Below are positions 43,714 to 51,068 of a stretch of DNA of 51,068 nucleotides, one piece after another. Origin of the DNA: Variovorax sp. CAN15 (GTDB taxonomy: Bacteria > Pseudomonadota > Gammaproteobacteria > Burkholderiales > Burkholderiaceae_C); assembly GCF_030462475.1 (NCBI RefSeq), contig NZ_JASMRZ010000007.1, positions 3,395 through 54,462 on the forward strand, written 5' to 3'. Below the pieces are notes generated by a model. It saw nothing but the letters and a program-made list of their open reading frames with translations. It was not told the DNA's origin and did no database searches. Position numbers and translations under genes: made by a program. How positions within the stretch are numbered: the first letter of the stretch is position 1; the number at the start of each line of letters is the position of its first letter.

Positions 43714-43804
43714 TGCGCCTCACTGTGGTTTTGCTTGCATGCACCGAGGCGTCGGCACGGCGTTCGCTTGCCGCACCATCGCCTTCGGGCGAAACTCCCG
43801 GATT

Positions 43805-44812
43805 ATGTCAAAGGTCAAGCCTACGCCCCTGCCGCCGGATACGGTCATTGGAGGTTACCGCGTTGTACGCCGGCTTTCCGCAGGCGGATTCGGCGTCGTC
43901 TACCTCGCCATCGATTCGAGCGGCCAGCAGGTTGCCATCAAGGAATACCTGCCGTCGTCGCTTGCCACGCGCGGCCCCGGCGAACTGGCGCCGCAGGTGC
44001 CGCCGGAGAAGCTGTCGCTGTACCGCCTGGGCCTGAAGAGCTTTTTCGAGGAAGGGCGCTCGCTGGCGCAGATCTCGCACGCATCGGTGGTCAGCGTGCT
44101 CAACTTCTTCCGCGAGAACGAAACCGTCTACATGGTCATGAACTACCTGGAGGGCGCGACCCTTCAGGACTTCGTGGTCACTGCGCGCGACCTGAAAAAG
44201 CAGAAGGTTTTCCGCGAGTCGACCATCCGCTCGCTCTTCGACGAGATCCTGCGCGGCCTGCGCATCGTCCACCAGTACAAGATGCTGCACCTGGACATCA
44301 AGCCGGCCAACATCTTCGTCACCGACGACGACCGCGCCGTGCTGATCGACTTCGGCGCCGCGCGCGAAGTGCTCAGCAAGGAAGGCATCTTCATCCGCCC
44401 GATGTACACCCCCGGCTTCGCCGCCCCCGAGATGTACCGGCGCGATTCGTCCATGGGCCCCTGGACCGACATCTACGCCATCGGCGCCTGCATCTATGCC
44501 TGCATGCAGGGCTACCCGCCCAACGACGCGCCCCGGCGCATCGAGAAGGACCGCCTCAGCCTGTCGCTCTCGCGCCTGCGCGGCGTGTATTCCGACAACC
44601 TGATCGAGGTGGTCGAGTGGTGCATGTCGCTGGACCCGCTGTCGCGCCCGCAGTCGGTCTTCGCGCTGCAGAAGGAGCTCAGCCGAGAGGGCGAGCGCCG
44701 CTACACCAAGCTGACCGTGGGCGAGAAAGTGCGCCTGTCGATCGACAACATCCGTTCCTTCGACAAGAAGGCCCTGCCCAAGGCTGCCGCGCCCACCACG
44801 CGCCCTGCATGA
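43805..44812 (+). CDS. Hanks-type serine/threonine protein kinase
   Basis: A 335-residue soluble kinase. The glycine loop is SAGGFGVVY (residues 26-34), the ATP lysine is K46 in VAIKEYLP, the catalytic loop is HLDIKPAN (162-169) and the metal aspartate is D182 in IDFGAAR. The arginine before the catalytic aspartate (HRD) is leucine, so activation-loop control may be unlike that of RD kinases. There is no PASTA, transmembrane or sensor domain. The start at MSKVKPTPLP is preferred over an upstream frame. The PP2C gene begins four bases after its stop, forming a reversible phosphorylation pair. Confidence 0.93.
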   Translation: MSKVKPTPLPPDTVIGGYRVVRRLSAGGFGVVYLAIDSSGQQVAIKEYLPSSLATRGPGELAPQVPPEKLSLYRLGLKSFFEEGRSLAQISHASVVSVLNFFRENETVYMVMNYLEGATLQDFVVTARDLKKQKVFRESTIRSLFDEILRGLRIVHQYKMLHLDIKPANIFVTDDDRAVLIDFGAAREVLSKEGIFIRPMYTPGFAAPEMYRRDSSMGPWTDIYAIGACIYACMQGYPPNDAPRRIEKDRLSLSLSRLRGVYSDNLIEVVEWCMSLDPLSRPQSVFALQKELSREGERRYTKLTVGEKVRLSIDNIRSFDKKALPKAAAPTTRPA

Positions 44813-44816
44813 CATC

Positions 44817-45722
44817 ATGAAATTCTCCGTCTTCCAGGTCAGCCGCAAGGGCGGGCGTCTCAAGAACGAAGACCGCATGGGCTATTGCTACACGCGGGAA
44901 TCGGGGTTGTTCGTGCTGGCTGACGGCATGGGCGGCCATCCGGAAGGCGAAGTGGCGGCGCAGCTCGCGCTGCAGACCATCGCCGCGCTCTACCAGCGCG
45001 AGGCGCGCCCGACTGTGAAGGACGTGAAGTCCTTCCTCGCCGAATCGGCCATGGCCGCGCACCAGCAGATCATGCGCTACGCGAGCCACAAGGCCATGCT
45101 CGACACCCCGCGCACCACCGTCGTCGCGGCCGTGTTGCAGGGCACCACCGCCACCTGGATGCACTGCGGCGATTCGCGCCTTTACGTCGTGCGCGACGGC
45201 CGCCTGCTGGTGCGCACGCGCGACCACTCGCACGCCGAGCGCCCGAAGCCGCACGGCTCCGACGCGCCCGTCAACCGCAACCTGCTGCTGACCTGCCTGG
45301 GCTCGCCGACCACGCCGCTCTTCGACGTCTCGGCACCGCTGCAGTTGCAGCGCGGCGACCGCATCATGCTGTGCTCCGATGGCGTCTGGGGCGTGCTCGA
45401 CGACGAACTCATCGTGCACACGCTGTCTTCCGGCAAGCCCGTGTCCGACGCCGCCCCCGACCTCGCCGAGATGGCCCTGCGCAAGGGCGGCTCCCACAGC
45501 GACAACGTCACGCTCATCGCGCTCGAATGGGAAATGCCCGACAGCGCCGACGACCGCAGCGGCGTGTCGACCGAGACCATCGAGGACGGCGTCTTCGCCT
45601 CCACCATCCAGGCCGGCATGCCCTCGGACAACGAGATCGACGACCTCGACGAAGACGCGATCGAGCGCTCCATCGCCGAGATCAACGAAGCCATCCGCAG
45701 ATCGGCGGCGCGCAAGACCTGA
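44817..45722 (+). CDS. PP2C-family serine/threonine phosphatase
   Basis: A 301-residue metal-dependent phosphatase. The motifs are [44 protein letters not shown] and [13 protein letters not shown], so all metal-binding aspartates are present. The catalytic domain ends about residue 240; the remaining ~60 residues are strongly acidic ([15 protein letters not shown]) and may be a regulatory tail. It probably reverses phosphorylation by the adjacent kinase. Confidence 0.93.
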
Positions 45723-48417: not shown

Positions 48418-48502
48418 GGAGAGTTGGGTGAGTGGTTTAAACCAGCAGTCTTGAAAACTGCCGACGTGAAAGCGTCCGTGAGTTCGAATCTCACACTCTC
48501 CG
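48418..48502 (+). tRNA. tRNA-Ser (anticodon TGA)
   Basis: A class II tRNA with a long variable arm. Acceptor stem GGAGAGT pairs with ACTCTCC, and discriminator G is at 48502. The anticodon loop CTTGAAA gives TGA at 48452-48454. The sequence after the discriminator is CACC, so CCA is not encoded. It starts 33 bases after the hemW stop. Confidence 0.95.
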
Positions 48503-48508
48503 CACCCC

Positions 48509-49055: not shown

Positions 49056-49826
49056 ATGAGCACGCCAACCGCCGCACCTCGTGCCCGCCGGCCGCTGCTG
49101 AGCTTCAGCGTCGAGGGGCTGCCGGCCCGCGACGAACTGCTCTTCAAGTCCCTTGTCCGGTTGCTCGACCACCGCACCCACCAGCACTGGGCCTGGCAGG
49201 TCGAGGGCGCCGACCTTCGCGTGGTGGGCGACAGGCTCCCCGCGCCGCCTGAAGAAGAACCGGCCGACAGCCCGGTGCCGCTGTTGACGATCGGCGAGAC
49301 GCCGCCGCCGCGCGGGCCGTTCCTGCGTTTGCCGTTGCATGCCGATGCGCTCGAGGCCATGCTCAACCGCCTCGGCGCGCTGGTGGTCCATGCCCGCGAG
49401 CTCGGGCTGGCTGCGGCTTCCCGCCGCCGCAACGAGCAGGCAGCGCATGGCGAGGAATACCGCTTGCTGCGCTGGCCCTCGGCCACGCTGCTCGACTCCA
49501 CCCTGCGCATGAAGCTCGCCACGCTGCTCGCGAGCCGTCCGGCTTCGCTGCAGGCGCTGCAGCAGCGCTCGAACGCCAGCGCGCAGGAGTGCGCGGATTT
49601 CATCTCCGTGCTCGAGCGCGCGGGCTTCATCGCGAGCAGTGGCGGAGGCGCCACCGGCTTCGCCAACAGCCGCGCGCCCGAGTCGATCTGGCCCGATTCG
49701 CACATCTCCACCGGCAACGACGCGCCTCATGCCGCGCCCCCCGCGCCGCGCGCCAACGTGGAACCAGGCCTGTTGGCGCGCATCCGCAGCCGCCTCGGGC
49801 TGCTGTCATCCGGACCGAGGGCCTGA
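49056..49826 (+). CDS. Unrecognised 256-aa protein of the roadblock/GTPase operon
   Basis: Starts MSTPTAAPRARRPLLSFSVEGLP. The first ~120 residues are Pro-rich and mixed, with DELLFKSLVRLLDHRTHQHW. A second region (about 145-195) reads STLRMKLATLLASRPASLQ then ALQQRSNASAQECADFISVL and ERAGFIAS, which has the look of a winged-helix fold. The tail is Pro/Ala-rich. It has no signal peptide or membrane helix. The GTPase start lies five bases after its stop, so it is probably the partner or adaptor of that GTPase. No known family was recognised. Confidence 0.75.
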   Translation: MSTPTAAPRARRPLLSFSVEGLPARDELLFKSLVRLLDHRTHQHWAWQVEGADLRVVGDRLPAPPEEEPADSPVPLLTIGETPPPRGPFLRLPLHADALEAMLNRLGALVVHARELGLAAASRRRNEQAAHGEEYRLLRWPSATLLDSTLRMKLATLLASRPASLQALQQRSNASAQECADFISVLERAGFIASSGGGATGFANSRAPESIWPDSHISTGNDAPHAAPPAPRANVEPGLLARIRSRLGLLSSGPRA

Positions 49827-49831
49827 AGAGC

Positions 49832-50350
49832 GTGGAGCACAAGATTCTTTTCACCGGCACCATGGGTGCGGGCAAGACCACTGCCATCGCCGCGGTGAGC
49901 GAGATTCCACCGGTGCGCACCGAGGTGCGCAACAGCGACACCTCCGTCGCCAAGGCCACCACCACCGTGGGCCTGGACTACGGCGAGCTCACGCTCGACA
50001 ACGGCGAGAAGCTGCGCCTGTACGGCACGCCGGGGCAGATGCGCTTCGACTTCATGTGGCGCATCCTCGCGCGCGGCGCGCTGGGCCTCGTGGTCCTGGT
50101 CGACAACAGCCGCCCCGATCCGCTGGCCGACCTGGAGGTGTACCTCGACGGCTTCGCCGAGTTGATCGAGAGCACCGCCTGCGTGGTTGCTGTGGGCCGC
50201 ATGGAGGCGCACCCCGAGCCCGGCCTCGACGCCTATGCCCGGCGCATGCAGGACAAGGGCGTGCTGTGCCCCGTGCTGCCGGCCAACGTGACCGATCCGC
50301 AGCAGGTGGTGCAGCTGCTGGAGCTGCTGCTGATCCAGCTCGAAGCCTGA
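49832..50350 (+). CDS. Ras-like small GTPase (MglA/CvnD-like ATP/GTP-binding protein)
   Basis: A 172-residue single-domain protein starting at GTG (MEHKILFTGTMGAGKTTAIA). G1 is GTMGAGKT. A threonine-rich switch I follows (VAKATTTVGLDYGEL). The G3 region is LYGTPGQMRF, where glycine replaces the aspartate of DTPGQ. The usual G4 NKxD is not visible; CVVAVGRMEAHPEPG occupies its place. The same GTPG variant is found in actinobacterial conservon GTPases. Roadblock proteins downstream are the expected partners. A TTG or other earlier start is unlikely given the upstream stop. Confidence 0.85.
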   Translation: MEHKILFTGTMGAGKTTAIAAVSEIPPVRTEVRNSDTSVAKATTTVGLDYGELTLDNGEKLRLYGTPGQMRFDFMWRILARGALGLVVLVDNSRPDPLADLEVYLDGFAELIESTACVVAVGRMEAHPEPGLDAYARRMQDKGVLCPVLPANVTDPQQVVQLLELLLIQLEA

Positions 50351-50406
50351 TCGCGGCGGACGGCTTTCCCCCTTTCTTTTTCACCGCAACGCCGGACCCC
50401 AACCAC

Positions 50407-50790
50407 ATGAACATCGCACCCCGCATCAAGGACGCCGCCGAGACCGTCGTCGACACGCTCATGCGCGAGGTCAAGGGCGTGAAGGCCGTGGTGATCGCGA
50501 CCGAGGACGGCATGGAGCTCGCCGCGCGCGCGGAGAACACCGCCCAGGTCGCGCGCATGTCTGCCATCGCGAGTTCGCTCGCGGCGCTTGGCGCGGTGGC
50601 TGGCGAGGAAAGCGGCCTCGGCCAGTGCGAGAACGTCGTCATCGAAACCGCGCTGGGCCACATCCTGATGCTGCAGGCCCGGCACGAGGAAGCCGGGCTG
50701 ATCGTGAGCGTGGTGACGGGCAAGGACGCCGTCATCGGCCAGGCCCTGTACTTCTCCAAGCAGGCCACGCTCGCGCTGCAGCGGGCCTGA
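50407..50790 (+). CDS. Roadblock/LC7-domain protein (first)
   Basis: A 127-residue single-domain protein: MNIAPRIKDAAETVVDTLMR, then VKGVKAVVIATEDGMELAAR, MSAIASSLAALGAVAGEESG and IETALGHILMLQARH. The dimeric roadblock fold of MglB/CvnB and LC7 proteins regulates small GTPases by direct contact. It lies 56 bases after the GTPase stop in the same operon. It lacks other domains. Confidence 0.88.
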   Translation: MNIAPRIKDAAETVVDTLMREVKGVKAVVIATEDGMELAARAENTAQVARMSAIASSLAALGAVAGEESGLGQCENVVIETALGHILMLQARHEEAGLIVSVVTGKDAVIGQALYFSKQATLALQRA

Positions 50791-50874
50791 ACGCTTTCAC
50801 CACCGGCTGCCGCTCATCATTCGCCCGGGCGGCGGCCGATCATCAGGGCGATGGAATACCTACGAAAGACTCCG

Positions 50875-51068
50875 ATGGCAAACATCAAGCAATCCATGGA
50901 CGAACTCATGACGATCGACGGCGCGCTCTGCGCGGCACTGGTCGATTCGGGCAGCGGCATGATCCTTGGACAGATCGGTTCGGGCGTCGACCTGGAAGTG
51001 GCCGCCGCCGGCAATACCGAAGTGGTGCGCGCCAAGCACAAGACGATGCGCGCGCTGGGCCTGAACGA
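50875..51068 (+). CDS. Second roadblock/LC7-like protein, cut by window edge
   Basis: The 64 visible residues read MANIKQSMDELMTIDGALCA, then ALVDSGSGMILGQIGSGVDL and EVAAAGNTEVVRAKHKTM, a roadblock-like N-terminal half of a different subfamily from the first. An in-frame ATG eight codons earlier (50851) is an alternative start. The gene continues beyond the window. Confidence 0.75.
   Translation, partial: MANIKQSMDELMTIDGALCAALVDSGSGMILGQIGSGVDLEVAAAGNTEVVRAKHKTMRALGLN

Follow-up and report, generated by a model that had tools for sequence, protein, structure and literature searches.

The end of the window, by which we mean the whole stretch of 51,068 nucleotides analysed here, raises the question of which known system a small Ras-like GTPase operon belongs to, and of what the proteins encoded beside the GTPase might do for it. 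The operon lies at 49056-51068 on the + strand and comprises gene A, encoding a 256-aa protein, gene B, encoding the GTPase, and genes C and D, encoding two roadblock proteins; a preliminary description had already read this set of four same-strand genes from the sequence, and translation, motifs and folds bear it out (Table 1). The window comes from contig C161, in a genome of 6.9 Mb. Gene D is interrupted by the window end, but the contig sequence continues and, with a single unresolved base immediately past that end, extension beyond 51068 as that description had proposed completes D near 51234 (119 aa), 3' of which lie an SDR gene and then two styrene-monooxygenase-like genes. All reading frames of the operon are open in the window copy. 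Two further A-B-C-D operons are found on contigs C139 and C107, and it is nearly certain that the window operon is one of three paralogous copies in this Variovorax-like genome. The GTPases of the two paralogous operons are 60% and 64% identical to window B, and their A proteins only 32% and 25% identical to window A.

Table 1. Positions of the genes, predicted domains and motifs of the operon in the window.
Feature	Position	Strand	Basis
Gene A, 256-aa partner	49056..49826	+	translation; model pLDDT 82.4; upstream of GTPase gene in relatives
A residues 14-115, predicted reduced receiver-like domain without phospho-Asp	49095..49400	+	model, VIA
A residues 134-194, predicted winged helix with RWP motif (W140)	49455..49637	+	model, alignment, VIA
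A residues 198-237, low-confidence linker, probably disordered	49647..49766	+	pLDDT; gappy in family
A residues 238-249, C-terminal basic amphipathic helix GLLARIRSRLGL	49767..49802	+	conserved columns, amphipathic criterion
Gene B, Ras-like GTPase, MglA Group 3 type	49832..50350	+	motifs, sequence comparison
B G1 P-loop GTMGAGKT	49856..49879	+	sequence
B G3 motif GTPGQ (Groups 2-5 signature)	50024..50038	+	sequence; PMC4316618 (available part)
B degenerate G4 motif GRME (canonical [NT]KxD)	50195..50206	+	119-sequence comparison
B altered G5 motif NVT (DxR usual in relatives)	50285..50293	+	119-sequence comparison
Gene C, roadblock/LC7, MglB-like, Asp-Gly pair	50407..50790	+	Robl_LC7; alignment
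C Asp34-Gly35 pair, as in MglB of Groups 2-5	50506..50511	+	alignment; PMC4316618 (available part)
Gene D, first 64 codons, second roadblock, Asp of the pair absent	50875..51068	+	alignment; ortholog fold

Judged by sequence comparison, the operon nearly certainly encodes a GTPase system of the MglA family, Group 3, in which both roadblock proteins are of the MglB type. Prokaryotic MglA GTPases were sorted into five groups by Wuichet and Sogaard-Andersen in 2014 (PMC4316618, cited throughout from its available part), and Group 3 was described there computationally as a conserved protein of unknown function together with MglA and one or two MglB proteins in beta- and gamma-proteobacteria. The assignment is made because the gene set, the taxonomy, the GTPGQ motif and the Asp-Gly pair of one roadblock protein agree with that description. 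The window operon has the same gene neighbourhood, A has the receiver-like N-terminus, winged helix, variable linker and lack of a Pfam family above cut-off that mark the Group 3 partner, and B carries both the G3 motif GTPGQ and the Thr that replaces Arg in G2. In contrast, the window subclade lacks the receiver Asp and the G5 D-x-R, and three copies share one genome; a G5 motif with Arg (DAR) is a conserved trait of Group 3 rather than a group criterion (PMC4316618), and where window B has NVT the two paralogs have DPR and DVR. In a tree of 119 relatives, which takes in Snodgrassella, whose mglA has been placed in Group 3 (PMC11112851, available part), the nearest named relatives are Variovorax.

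The system is known but almost unstudied, and its partner, which the preliminary description called unrecognised, is better called uncharacterised: A agrees with the Group 3 protein that had been listed as conserved and without known function, whose receiver-like and winged-helix make-up was already predicted with Phyre2 in 2014 (PMC4316618). A conserved C-terminal region was also noted, and the available part of that paper does not mention an amphipathic C-terminal helix. What is new here is the predicted domain layout of A, its conserved tail, the MglB-like fold predicted for D and the loss of G5 in the window subclade. Our literature search, in which subscription journals are thinly covered, returned no tested function for the Group 3 partner protein.

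A profile built from the three GTPases of the genome matched in 25 of 200 family genomes (24 of the 179 good ones) and in 64 of 369 class genomes (60 of the 314 good ones). Matches to this GTPase type are therefore found in about a fifth of the sampled class members. Among the named loci, which are the best 80 of 433 confirmed matches, gene A immediately precedes the GTPase gene in 78, the exceptions being L037, at a contig edge, and L080; D is present in 54, and all 80 carry proteobacterial titles. In 27 of 29 further class-level loci, own copy excluded and two of them duplicating named loci, A is again found upstream. The C-family HMM was a trimmed version from which over-long ORFs had been removed. 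The proposal of a conserved module related to MglA/MglB whose genes co-occur in relatives, and the neighbour survey suggested for it, thus came out positively. In Thiotrichaceae and one other genome we also observed a B-A-B-C layout, in which a GTPase gene flanks A on both sides (L068, L071, L072, L073 and L093).

One close known counterpart is the Snodgrassella mgl locus (PMC11112851), in which, at L079 and L087, genes for A, B and a roadblock protein recur with a Group 3 mglA. Unlike the window operon, both loci have a TPR protein upstream, no detected D, and, between B and C, a protein of 218-219 aa that shows weak matches to winged-helix and roadblock proteins. Such an interposed protein, of about 211-244 aa and with weak matches of the same two kinds, occurs in Neisseriaceae, Sphaerotilus and other lineages (for example L079:8543-9199 and L082:5591-6229, plus 22 other ORFs, two ORFs being longer by extension). 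Its relation to the winged helix of A is weak, with an hhalign E of 2e-4 in one comparison at a probability of 44%, and 10% for the roadblock part, and we draw no support from it.

Protein A has no Pfam match above cut-off, and DUF742 does not appear in its Pfam scan even with E values of up to 1; with Foldseek alone, nothing scored below E 0.001. In the structural model, a receiver-like domain is followed by a winged helix, a linker that falls below pLDDT 50 at residues 198-209 and 212-221 and is gappy across the family, and a helix at residues 239-246. The receiver fold is also found in VIA, in which residues 132-204 match the winged helix 2yu3, and the winged-helix-like segment noted earlier thereby gains a predicted fold. 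At the receiver Asp position, which we assigned from strand 3, 38 of 68 relatives have D and 23 have G. Window A has Gly at this position (residue 58) and so lacks a phosphorylatable Asp; its N-terminus is predicted from the model to be a reduced pseudo-receiver. The most conserved parts of A include the RWP motif, whose W140 is present in all 68 rows of the alignment, and the C-terminal amphipathic helix.

Nearly every A protein ends, past the variable linker, in a basic amphipathic stretch, such as GLLARIRSRLGL in the window, GLLTRLFGWLNK at L075 (nearly identical in Sphaerotilus) and GLLSRLMSHLKGK in Snodgrassella. Our criterion for this tail, fixed only after per-sequence shuffle results were known, asks of the best 11-mer in the last 30 residues a moment of >=0.45, a net charge of >=+2 and a mean hydrophobicity of >0.15. 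It is passed by 75 of 78 A proteins (75 named and three own copies) vs 27 of 390 control ORFs, which are other ORFs of the same loci picked by all-against-all hits and of which some may be spurious, and by 20 of 25 A proteins in a second set; these passes are not independent events because A proteins are related by descent. Four A rows are excluded from the tail tests, namely L057 (a spurious ORF), L076 (wrong start) and the near-duplicates L012 and L023, and the second set excludes L089, L094 and L096 as own or duplicate loci. When each tail is compared with shuffles of its own last 30 residues, 33 of 78 exceed them at p 0.05; the window tail, with a moment of 0.50, is not significant by itself (p 0.245), so the case for an amphipathic tail rests on conservation, and it is at the family level that a C-terminal helix of high moment and net positive charge is found conserved.

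The two roadblock proteins differ in how readily they are recognised, and the profile searches that had been proposed gave a divided outcome. C matches Robl_LC7 with 29.8 bits, above the gathering cut-off of 23, and its Asp34-Gly35 pair is invariant (34/34 rows). In Pfam, D stays below the Robl_LC7 gathering score, both as the full-length paralog and as the 64 residues in the window, and a comparison of the D and C profiles gave no match, so that their kinship is visible by fold only. The model of a D ortholog (L009:9072-9431) has a firm MglB-like predicted roadblock fold, which also matches Ragulator chains, and at the position of the Asp-Gly pair of C an invariant Ser27-Gly28 is found in 34 rows of D. 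A D-like roadblock domain also forms the C-terminal ~110-117 residues of larger proteins, often of ~440 aa, in related genomes (L139-L148), most of which have no GTPase match; at L140, nadA and a nadB-like gene lie between two such paralogs, and L140:930-2273 matches no Pfam family outside the D-like domain.

From the gene set, the predicted folds, the motifs, the conservation of the tail and the gene linkage in some relatives, we infer a GTPase switch tethered to the membrane or the pole and positioned by A, with C as GAP and D as a non-catalytic partner, a reading to which we give somewhat less than even confidence. In such a system B would be the on/off switch, and C, which keeps the Asp-Gly pair, would be the putative GAP stimulating GTP hydrolysis by B. 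D, with a roadblock fold and without the Asp of the pair, could act like MglC of Myxococcus, pairing with C or serving as a docking platform. A would be the input and positioning protein, its pseudo-receiver taking no phosphate and offering a protein-binding surface instead, and its winged helix making contact with the GTPase/roadblock complex and not with DNA, possibly to promote nucleotide exchange. The amphipathic tail, on its flexible linker, may keep the switch membrane-bound, with the inner membrane, probably at a pole, as the place where the complex is tethered; the output is probably polar surface machinery, e.g. type IV pili. In view of the likely GEF role reported for the CvnC homolog MfpC, and of the GAP role reported for MfpD (PMC13343842, available part), the winged helix of A is a candidate exchange factor.

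A functional parallel is found in Myxococcus. MglA, MglB, MglC and RomR together provide a GTPase, a GAP roadblock, a second roadblock and a receiver-linker-helix adaptor, and to our knowledge RomR, unlike A, has no winged helix. RomR combines a receiver with a disordered region and with a C-terminal helix through which it binds the roadblock MglC (PMC12719032, available part), and it serves as the working precedent for A. Unlike A, it has a glutamate-rich C-terminal region (PMC12719032); unlike window B, Myxococcus MglA belongs to Group 1, with TVPGQ and an arginine finger (PMC4316618).

Whether the module acts in polarity can be approached through its neighbours. The earlier remark that no polarity factor is visible is correct for the window locus, since no bactofilin, FimV/HubP, TPR or globin/PAS neighbours of the polarity type were seen near the window operon or near either paralogous operon, but does not extend to some relatives, whose modules sit beside bactofilin and FimV/HubP. 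At the Sphaerotilus natans locus L077, the module is preceded by a bactofilin gene (91.8 bits, cut-off 27.9) and followed by PAS and FimV/HubP genes; FimV_core scores 66.2 bits at L077 and 59.6 at L084 (cut-off 43.45). In 4 of 72 module-bearing genomes (G058, G170, G273 and G502), these four coming from two families (two of one genus, two of the other family), a bactofilin gene lies within <=5 kb of the GTPase, where a rough Poisson figure gives about 0.4 expected; FimV_core is above cut-off within the same distance in two of the 72 (G058 and G170) and sub-threshold in the other two. Neisseriaceae loci encode a TPR protein that overlaps the start of A in L079 and L087 and abuts it in L074 and L086; by eye, its N-terminus has a hydrophobic stretch, and the TPR matches are at or just above cut-off in L079, L074 and L086. 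In L086, C is followed by a protoglobin-GGDEF gene, and a protoglobin gene lies between B and C in L085. In Snodgrassella, mutation of an orphan mglB about 1 megabase off the operon alters soft-agar spreading (PMC11112851). Such neighbours in relatives make polarity a reasonable inference by kinship and nothing beyond, and a role of the window module in polarity, motility or surface sensing, as the preliminary description had suggested, is plausible.

We also looked for type IV pili by co-occurrence. PilT was uninformative, being present in 24/24 module-bearing and 34/36 other family genomes (p 0.51; G008, 65% complete, excluded). For PilQ, the sample of 40 class-level positives and 40 negatives gave 39/40 module-bearing vs 31/40 other genomes (p = 0.014), a weak difference subject to small-genome bias.

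Other readings of the same proteins need to be weighed against a tethered switch, and two of them concern A. The tail fits either a membrane anchor or a docking helix like that of RomR, and in the latter case A would be a soluble adaptor whose tail binds the roadblock D (or C) instead of the membrane, as the RomR helix does with MglC. In keeping with docking, a tail subtype, IRxRLGL, tracks D, which is present in 52 of 63 loci with the motif vs 4 of 41 without it. However, this association is confounded by descent, and the tree holds too few independent changes to judge it: with L054 and L056 (short contigs), L089 and L094 excluded, it requires a minimum of 4 changes of tail subtype and 8 of D, with 2 to 4 independent pairs on supported branches. 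Moreover, lineages without D still have an amphipathic A tail, which is kept at several loci without detected D, e.g. L046, L047 and L048. We regard docking as a possibility of some weight, albeit on the unlikely side. Slightly less likely is a transcription regulator in which a receiver-like domain and a DNA-binding winged helix are switched by the GTPase, a role proposed for Group 3 from the Phyre2 prediction (PMC4316618). Both folds are present in the model of A and the whole winged helix has a positive net charge (mean +2.7), which is compatible with DNA binding; against this, no column of its third helix is mostly basic, and the average charge of that helix is negative (mean -0.87; positive in 18% of 68), a measure for which the LysR control, meant to supply true DNA-binding helices, scored none, and conservation is highest in parts that include the RWP motif and the tail. 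The winged helix is accordingly predicted to lack a basic recognition helix.

The remaining alternatives turn on B and on the origin of the operon. In the 119 sequences, G1 and GTPGQ are intact in 115, window B included, canonical G4 [NT]KxD is found in 10 only, and G5 DxR in 105. Both canonical G4 and G5 are absent in 14, 12 of which form one group of 11 Variovorax-type rows (including the window) and Xenophilus that share GRxE and NxT, which places window B in a subclade in which G5 has been lost as well and G1-G3 kept. This double loss, with that of the receiver Asp in window A, would suit a degenerate paralog whose GTPase has come to bind guanine nucleotides poorly and which serves the other two copies as a decoy or fixed scaffold. 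We find this improbable: the frames are open and G1 and GTPGQ intact; with G4 non-canonical in 109 of 119, its loss is usual in these GTPases; the Group 2 protein CvnD9 has GTPase activity despite an unusual G4 (PMC4316618); and every one of the 11 Variovorax-type copies of the window-type operon retains NVT, with NAT in Xenophilus, a conservation that suggests function. The preliminary description had also likened the operon to actinobacterial conservons (AGPS; CvnA-D), which likewise combine a GTPase, a roadblock protein and a third small protein in an operon and occur in several copies per genome, and the profile of C matches the CvnB5 structure 3leq (E 1.7e-14). Yet a Pfam scan of nine genes neighbouring the window operon and of six near the paralogs found no histidine kinase, the counterpart of CvnA, in line with the earlier remark that no sensor kinase is visible; by Pfam, A is no relative of CvnC, which we take to be DUF742, and D is an extra roadblock. 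Conservon membership is therefore rejected, the likeness being at most one of analogy, and an origin by transfer of an actinobacterial conservon with later loss of the kinase is scarcely credible.

More speculative, and in our view quite unlikely, is a design analogous to the eukaryotic Rag-Ragulator (LAMTOR) system, in which A would be a membrane-anchored pseudo-receiver scaffold holding a C/D heterodimer and the GTPase at a defined membrane site, the GTPase of the window subclade lacking both guanine-specificity motifs, with three insulated switches per cell. The likeness is one of design only, namely a membrane-anchored scaffold, roadblock partners and a Ras-like GTPase, and remains an analogy; Rag GTPases are heterodimers with C-terminal domains of their own. 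Under the tethered switch that we prefer, the family would offer simple beta-proteobacterial models of a Ras-like switch and roadblock polarity without many of the Myxococcus parts.

Some minor observations concern the surroundings of the operon. Copies of the window-type operon seem to be placed at differing genomic sites in relatives. Of 13 loci with this operon type, a hemW neighbour occurs in one (L023) and the downstream SDR gene in three, some missing neighbours possibly reflecting contig ends because several upstream flanks are short. A tRNA-Ser gene (48418-48503) lies just upstream of the operon (49056-51234). Farther upstream, about 3.3 kb from the operon and separated from it by genes for RNase PH, Ham1 and HemW, a Ser/Thr protein kinase (Pkinase, 135.6 bits) and a PP2C phosphatase (52.9 bits) are encoded adjacently on the same strand at 43739-45722.
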